From assembly GCA_026129095.1 (NCBI GenBank), contig JAHCIT010000001.1, positions 310,245 to 374,244 of the forward strand: a stretch of DNA of 64,000 bases. The letters run 5' to 3'. Both the position numbers and the translations under genes were made by a program. Origin of the DNA: Deltaproteobacteria bacterium. Lineage in GTDB: Bacteria; JAGRBM01; JAHCIT01. Shown piece after piece: positions 59,725 to 60,481 of the stretch (positions are counted from its first letter, which is position 1; each line of letters opens with the position of its first letter). The notes under the pieces were generated by a model that made no database searches, had not been told where the DNA came from, and saw only the letters and a list, made by a program, of their open reading frames with translations.

Positions 59725-60162
59725 CTATTCCACGCTTTTCACCGGTTTTGCTTCGCAGCCCTTGACCCATTCAACCGTGCCATCGGCAAAATACTCTTTC
59801 TTCCATATAGGGACGGTCTGTTTCAGGGTGTCGATAGCCCAGTGACAGGCGCGAATGGCATCAGCGCGGTGCGGCGAACTGACCGCAATGGCTACCGAAG
59901 CCTCGCCGATGGCCAGATCCCCCACGCGGTGCTCAATCCGGCAACGGGTGACAACAAACCTCCTGACGGTTTCCGCTTCGATCTCATCCATCACCTTTTC
60001 GGCCATGCCGGGCATCGATTCGTAGTAAAGCCTGAGAACACCCCGGCCTTCGTGGTGATTACGCACAACGCCCAGAAATGTCGCCACCGCACCGGCTTCC
60101 GGCGTCACAACTTCGGCCGCCAGCCGGTCAACAGATAGCGTATCTTTCAGAAGACGGCTCAC
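59725..60162 (-). CDS. moaE: Molybdopterin synthase catalytic subunit
   Basis: A 145-residue protein of the usual length. It has AVATFLGVVRNHHEGRGVLR, YYESMPGMAEKVMDEI, HRVGDLAIGEASVAIA and VPIWKKEYFADG, with the catalytic lysine pair near the C-terminus. MoaE takes sulfur from MoaD thiocarboxylate to turn precursor Z (cPMP) into molybdopterin. I prefer the GTG at 60162, which overlaps the moaD TGA (GTGA) and has GGAGG six bases upstream, over the in-frame GTG at 60168, which would lie directly against that site. Confidence 0.94.
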   Translation of the reverse strand: MSRLLKDTLSVDRLAAEVVTPEAGAVATFLGVVRNHHEGRGVLRLYYESMPGMAEKVMDEIEAETVRRFVVTRCRIEHRVGDLAIGEASVAIAVSSPHRADAIRACHWAIDTLKQTVPIWKKEYFADGTVEWVKGCEAKPVKSVE

Positions 60163-60410
60163 CGGCACCCTCCACTCACGGGCGGAATCAGAGCTATCTC
60201 CTCCCCCGGTTTCAGCTTATGCCCGGTGTCAATGTAACTTTCGCCGGAAACGACAGCGATGTGCTTGCGGCGGGCGGCAATATCCGGATGCCGCTCCCCC
60301 ACGGCTTCCAGAAGCATTCCTACCGATGAACCATCGGGCAGATCGAACAGTTCGCTGTCGGAACCTGCCAGATCCCTTAGCATGGCGAAATAGGCAACCC
60401 GAACCTGCAT
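60159..60410 (-). CDS. moaD: Molybdopterin synthase sulfur carrier subunit with C-terminal extension
   Basis: An 83-residue ubiquitin-like protein: VRVAYFAMLRDLAGSDSE, the SVGMLLEAVGERHP helix, then LKPGEEIALIPPVSGG. MoaD normally ends in Gly-Gly, whose C-terminal carboxylate is adenylated and thiolated by MoeB. Here Gly80-Gly81 is followed by Cys-Arg before the stop. The Gly-Gly codons (GGA GGG) also form the GGAGG ribosome-binding site for moaE. Either the tail is removed, or this MoaD is inactive, or the two residues are tolerated. The ATG at 60410 has GGAG six bases upstream and is preferred to the Met at 60422. Confidence 0.88.
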   Translation of the reverse strand: MQVRVAYFAMLRDLAGSDSELFDLPDGSSVGMLLEAVGERHPDIAARRKHIAVVSGESYIDTGHKLKPGEEIALIPPVSGGCR

Positions 60411-60481
60411 GAATGGCTCCATTCTCCGGTGGAAAATCTACCCGGAGAGTGGAGACCTGTCGAGCCGCTCAGGCCAGCTGG

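Follow-up and report, generated by a model that had tools for sequence, protein, structure and literature searches.

Short C-terminal tails on bacterial MoaD proteins and their co-occurrence with JAMM peptidases

Introduction

How can a MoaD protein function when its gene runs on past the essential C-terminal Gly-Gly, and does the start of the following gene force it to do so? The question is raised by a moaD gene in the window analyzed here (the whole stretch of 64,000 nucleotides from a deltaproteobacterial contig). In E. coli MoaD, deletion, insertion and substitution mutants have identified both the terminal and the penultimate glycine as essential (PMC4326299). An initial annotation proposed that the window MoaD carries a Cys-Arg tail because its Gly-Gly codons also form the moaE ribosome-binding site, an uncommon conflict between coding and regulatory sequence that would be resolved either by a protease or by tolerance of the tail.

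Anatomy of the moaD-moaE junction

Both genes lie on the minus strand, with moaD at 60159..60422 (87 codons if its first ATG is the start; another in-frame ATG, at 60410-60408, is a better fit to the starts of relatives) and moaE at 59725..60162. Read directly from the letters, the minus strand runs 5' to 3' from 60179 as GTG AGT GGA GGG TGC CGG TGA; with the two preceding codons, CCG CCC, this encodes PPVSGG followed by Cys-Arg and a stop, so that the product ends PPVSGGCR. The essential glycine codons occupy 60168..60173 (GGA 60173-60171, GGG 60170-60168). Within them lies GGAGG (60169-60173), which is probably the Shine-Dalgarno sequence of moaE and is separated by six bases (60168-60163) from the moaE GTG. 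The tail codons TGC CGG follow at 60162..60167 (TGC 60167-60165, CGG 60164-60162), and the moaD stop TGA (60161-60159) overlaps the moaE start GTG (60162-60160) in a GTGA (60159..60162), an arrangement that probably couples translation of the two genes. The moaE frame is already open from a GTG at 60168-60166, which abuts GGAGG with no spacer, making the GTG at 60162 the likelier start. The signal and overlap described in the initial annotation are thus present in the letters, and the encoded MoaD C-terminus is indeed blocked.

The window MoaD belongs to the ThiS/MoaD beta-grasp family (PF02597, 51.9 bits against a cut-off of 22.5). It scores narrowly above the cut-off of the MoaD family model TIGR01687 (49.7 against 49.5) and just below that of the moaD equivalog model TIGR01682 (60.5 against 66.15), and we therefore treat it as a moaE-linked member of the MoaD family and not as a TIGR01682 equivalog. 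The adjoining moaE product matches PF02391 with 128.4 bits, and the two proteins are encoded in separate frames, not as a MoaD-MoaE fusion (MoaX) of the DR2607 type. Gly-Gly is retained within PPVSGG and is followed by Cys-Arg; since 57 of the 133 MoaD genes surveyed below do not end at Gly-Gly, such an end is unusable as a mark of membership. The window protein also has VVSGESY at the place of AVN.EY in most relatives.

Extended MoaD C-termini are common

A profile built from 17 MoaD sequences matched 135 places in 130 of 386 genomes. Two places were dropped after reading, as the profile match fell short of the last column: in G161, which ends PPEGKC and has no JAMM, it stops early, and in G238 it stops at position 61 of a protein that appears fused, in a genome with JAMM. 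Of the remaining 133 genes, 76 stop exactly at Gly-Gly, 28 extend 1-10 residues beyond it and 29 continue into MoaE as fusions. At these frequencies the tail cannot be dismissed as an oddity or a mistake, and the description of it as uncommon does not hold. The last 18 places matched least well (E 1e-10 to 1e-13) and are mostly exact and without JAMM, which makes the first 115 the safer count; in 104 of these, fusions counted, MoaE lies on the same strand as MoaD.

The tail is not dictated by the ribosome-binding site

The single genome of the same order among the 386 searched (G001) reads GGA GGC TAG GC GTG: it has the same GGAGG and the same 6-nt spacing, and its MoaD ends exactly at Gly-Gly. 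A stop therefore fits inside the spacer, and the junction can satisfy both coding and initiation. A homologue with this end and this moaE start is what the initial annotation had named as refuting its causal claim, and the claim falls with it. Overlap as a forced conflict is likewise ruled out by the 32 of 60 exact-ending genes that have GGAGG within their Gly-Gly codons. The tail is the moaD reading frame continuing to the stop within the GTGA overlap.

GGA is the first glycine codon in 32/60 exact, 13/26 short-tailed and 8/29 fused genes; taking the fused genes as the comparison group, as they need no internal moaE start, the difference is 45/86 non-fused against 8/29 (Fisher p=0.03). As a baseline, 18 of 142 Gly-Gly pairs in the mechanically listed long ORFs of the window start with GGA. 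GGAGG in the Gly-Gly codons thus exceeds chance, and Shine-Dalgarno-like use of these codons is common in tailed and tail-free MoaD alike.

How little separates the two states is illustrated by a pair of Poribacteria loci, GGT CAA GATG in L209 (tail QDV) and GGT TAA GATG in L216 (tail-free), showing that a single spacer base can create or remove a tail. For the window gene itself, the 386 genomes contained no close relative in which conservation of the tail could be followed, and a single-protein scan found no relative.

Short tails co-occur with a JAMM peptidase

The 386 genomes were also searched for Prok-JAB (PF14464), a match at E<=1e-10 counting as presence. Across the 133 MoaD genes, JAMM was present in the genome for 27/28 short-tailed, 29/29 fused and 24/76 exact genes (short against exact, Fisher 7e-10 with relatedness ignored). 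The pattern was similar for genes with MoaE adjacent or fused (24/25 short, 29/29 fused, 18/50 exact) and for the first 115 places (25/26, 29/29 and 22/60). Counted by family in the latter set, JAMM accompanied 18/19 short, 20/20 fused and 20/47 exact cases (short against exact, p=7e-5). The best JAMM locus was read in 23 tailed genomes and in G001, and every one of them has an intact metal-site motif, H-S/T-H-x7-S-x2-D.

Relatedness was taken into account with a quick-method, midpoint-rooted MoaD+MoaE gene tree of 104 rows. Tail state and JAMM are both clustered on this tree, with at least 19 changes of tail state (9 for short against exact alone) and 19 of JAMM. When JAMM was simulated along the tree, JAMM-less tailed genes were as few as observed in none of 3000 runs when all tailed genes were counted, and in 1.2% of runs (P=0.012) when only short tails were. 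The tree supports only six independent pairs, which differed in the same direction in 2.6 of 6 on average and never in the opposite one (p=0.25). In the genomes surveyed, short tails occur almost only alongside JAMM.

A second sample, from a scan with closer sequences, comprised 80 named loci and is biased, 37 being from Poribacteria; it held 13 exact, 48 short-tailed and 19 fused genes. JAMM was searched in 50 of the 80 genomes (43 non-Poribacteria and 7 of the 37 Poribacteria). At 1e-5 it was found for 9/13 exact, 18/19 short and 17/18 fused genes (tailed against exact, p=0.03), and at 1e-10 the same comparison gave p=0.18, so that this sample agrees weakly in direction with the survey.

Poribacteria MoaD in the second sample almost always has a three-residue tail, xDV, arising from the moaE ATG context, with Cys the commonest first residue. 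In the survey, Cys directly follows Gly-Gly in 6/26 short tails and 0/29 fusions, and Trp never does. We rejected Cys at this position as proof of selection: TGC and TGT differ from the stop TGA by a single base, and Poribacteria account for 13 of the 14 Cys cases of the second sample.

Three tailed genes of both samples lacked a JAMM match: G032 (tail K, in a genome that is 86% complete), L196 (tail R) and L199 (a fusion). A second JAMM model, PF01398, gave nothing over its cut-off in these three. In G032 and L196 the tail is a single basic residue, a possible substrate for a carboxypeptidase, and the study of mycobacterial MoaX did not identify the protease that cuts it (PMC4326299). Removal of the tail by another peptidase such as a carboxypeptidase, with an indirect association of JAMM, can thus be envisaged. 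We consider it improbable, as a carboxypeptidase would act independently of JAMM and could not mature fusions, whereas JAMM accompanies 29/29 fusions and 27/28 short tails.

Carriers and JAMM in the host genome

The genome to which the window belongs is a 3.67-Mb draft, 96.65% complete. Its best match to Prok-JAB/JAMM lies at C7:33387-33734 (PF14464, 98.9 bits) and has an intact metal site, HSH-x7-S-x2-D; the search for a JAMM-type gene advised in the initial annotation was therefore productive. The nearest solved structures by sequence are 2kcq (2kcq_A, E=3e-23), 2kks and JAMM1 5lda, and its score against the desampylase model NF041370, 86.5 bits, is below the curated cut-off of 130. JAMM and moaD do not adjoin. 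A MoeB-like gene (C7:35013-35675) lies just downstream of this JAMM, with one gene between them that resembles, as judged by eye, a lipoate-ligase relative. At a third JAMM match (C15) the H-S/T-H-x7-S-x2-D motif was not found. An 831-codon open frame at C5:309342-310490 with ThiF and JAB matches is an E1-JAB fusion, resembling those in mobile ubiquitin-like or defence operons.

Four ThiS-family carriers are encoded: the window MoaD, ThiS (ending GGG), a SAMP1/MoaD-like carrier on C2 ending Gly-Gly and a SAMP1-like carrier on C9 (1477-1815, minus strand) ending AIAGG-SGTLQAA. The C9 carrier, with SGTLQAA past its Gly-Gly, is a possible second JAMM substrate, and the JAMM of this genome may serve carriers other than MoaD, such as this SAMP1-like one, or CysO-like chemistry. 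A genome search found one MoaE gene, that of the window, together with two MoaA matches and several molybdopterin oxidoreductases, from which the molybdopterin pathway is probably in use. With three other carriers at hand, one of them could feed MoaE, and the window MoaD would then be no working carrier and its tail harmless decay. This is still less probable than removal by another peptidase: only the window protein scores as MoaD-like (60.5 bits with TIGR01682, against 17.3 and 16.9), and it precedes the only moaE of the genome and keeps PPVSGG.

We regard it as very unlikely that the tail is simply tolerated, with MoaD-GGCR accepted by MoeB or MoaE, given that both terminal glycines are essential in E. 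coli MoaD and uncut MoaX is inactive (PMC4326299); tolerance would also not predict the observed JAMM distribution. An assembly or sequencing error within TGC CGG is just as improbable despite the 23 contigs of the draft, since GGAGG, 6 nt, an ATGA or GTGA overlap and a two-residue tail recur in the unrelated genomes G276, G139 and G181.

Proposed maturation of the tailed MoaD

The reading we prefer, and judge probable from sequence comparison, is that a JAMM peptidase trims the Cys-Arg tail from a MoaD pro-form and so frees Gly-Gly for MoeB. The moaD frame has no stop in the spacer, where relatives have one, and ends at the TGA of the GTGA overlap, adding Cys-Arg; its product would be the pro-form. 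The JAMM encoded elsewhere, at C7:33387-33734, would most likely cut after the second Gly, and the trimmed MoaD would then be adenylated by MoeB. We infer cleavage in this organism, the choice of the responsible JAMM and the loss of an older stop as the direction of change. Where JAMM is absent, selection would hold the stop exactly after Gly-Gly; in a JAMM-bearing genome every MoaD extended beyond Gly-Gly could be matured, leaving the stop position free to drift.

QbsE/QbsD of Pseudomonas comprises a sulfur carrier with a two-residue, Cys-first tail after Gly-Gly that is removed by a JAMM protein; it serves a siderophore pathway, unlike the molybdopterin carrier MoaD. Mec+, the peptidase that acts on the carrier CysO, is also a JAMM protein. 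CysO/Mec+ of Mycobacterium resembles the proposed reaction in that a peptidase detaches cysteine from the Gly terminus of its carrier, and differs in that the Cys on CysO is added by CysM and not encoded (PMC3227635).

The precedent in the molybdopterin pathway, which makes protease trimming the best-supported of the outcomes first envisaged, together with the intact JAMM of the host and the co-occurrence of tails and JAMM, is Deinococcus radiodurans. There DRJAMM (DR0402) cleaves the MoaD-MoaE protein DR2607 and thereby frees the Gly end of an extended MoaD, and its mutant accumulates cPMP; the extension is MoaE, unlike the two residues and separate MoaE found here (PMC8832034). Similarly, MoaX of Mycobacterium tuberculosis requires a cut after Gly82 of Gly81-Gly82 (Gly82/Ser83) for activity but, unlike the window MoaD, is a fusion (PMC4326299). 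Iyer et al. (2006) raised the idea that JAB might release ThiS or MoaD from fusions for sulfur transfer; the available text stresses the absence of JAB from molybdopterin operons and does not treat short tails (PMC1779556).

Implications

Tailed MoaD proteins are a common class, and the value of the present locus lies in the rule that tails and JAMM co-occur. A literature search that lay mostly outside subscription papers returned no statement matching this rule for short MoaD tails. We put forward, tentatively and with distinctly less confidence than the trimming of the window protein, that short MoaD propeptides form a widespread bacterial class, regained several times and licensed by a JAMM acting in trans, which would thereby become essential for Moco synthesis; MoaD-MoaE fusion would be the extreme form. 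In that case, the recurrent Cys after Gly-Gly would point to a peptidase with a second role in cysteine synthesis, where it cuts Gly-Gly-Cys, and the molybdopterin and cysteine pathways would be linked.

If tails are tolerated only with JAMM, genome comparison points to JAMM as the general maturase of extended MoaD, and candidates for the MoaX protease would follow. The rule would also predict that a cloned tailed MoaD fails in a JAMM-less host, as does MoaX in E. coli, where it is non-functional and the cleavage system 'seems to be missing' (PMC3227635). More generally, a processing enzyme can allow the exact end of a protein to shift, with a single base in the moaD-moaE spacer toggling the tail.
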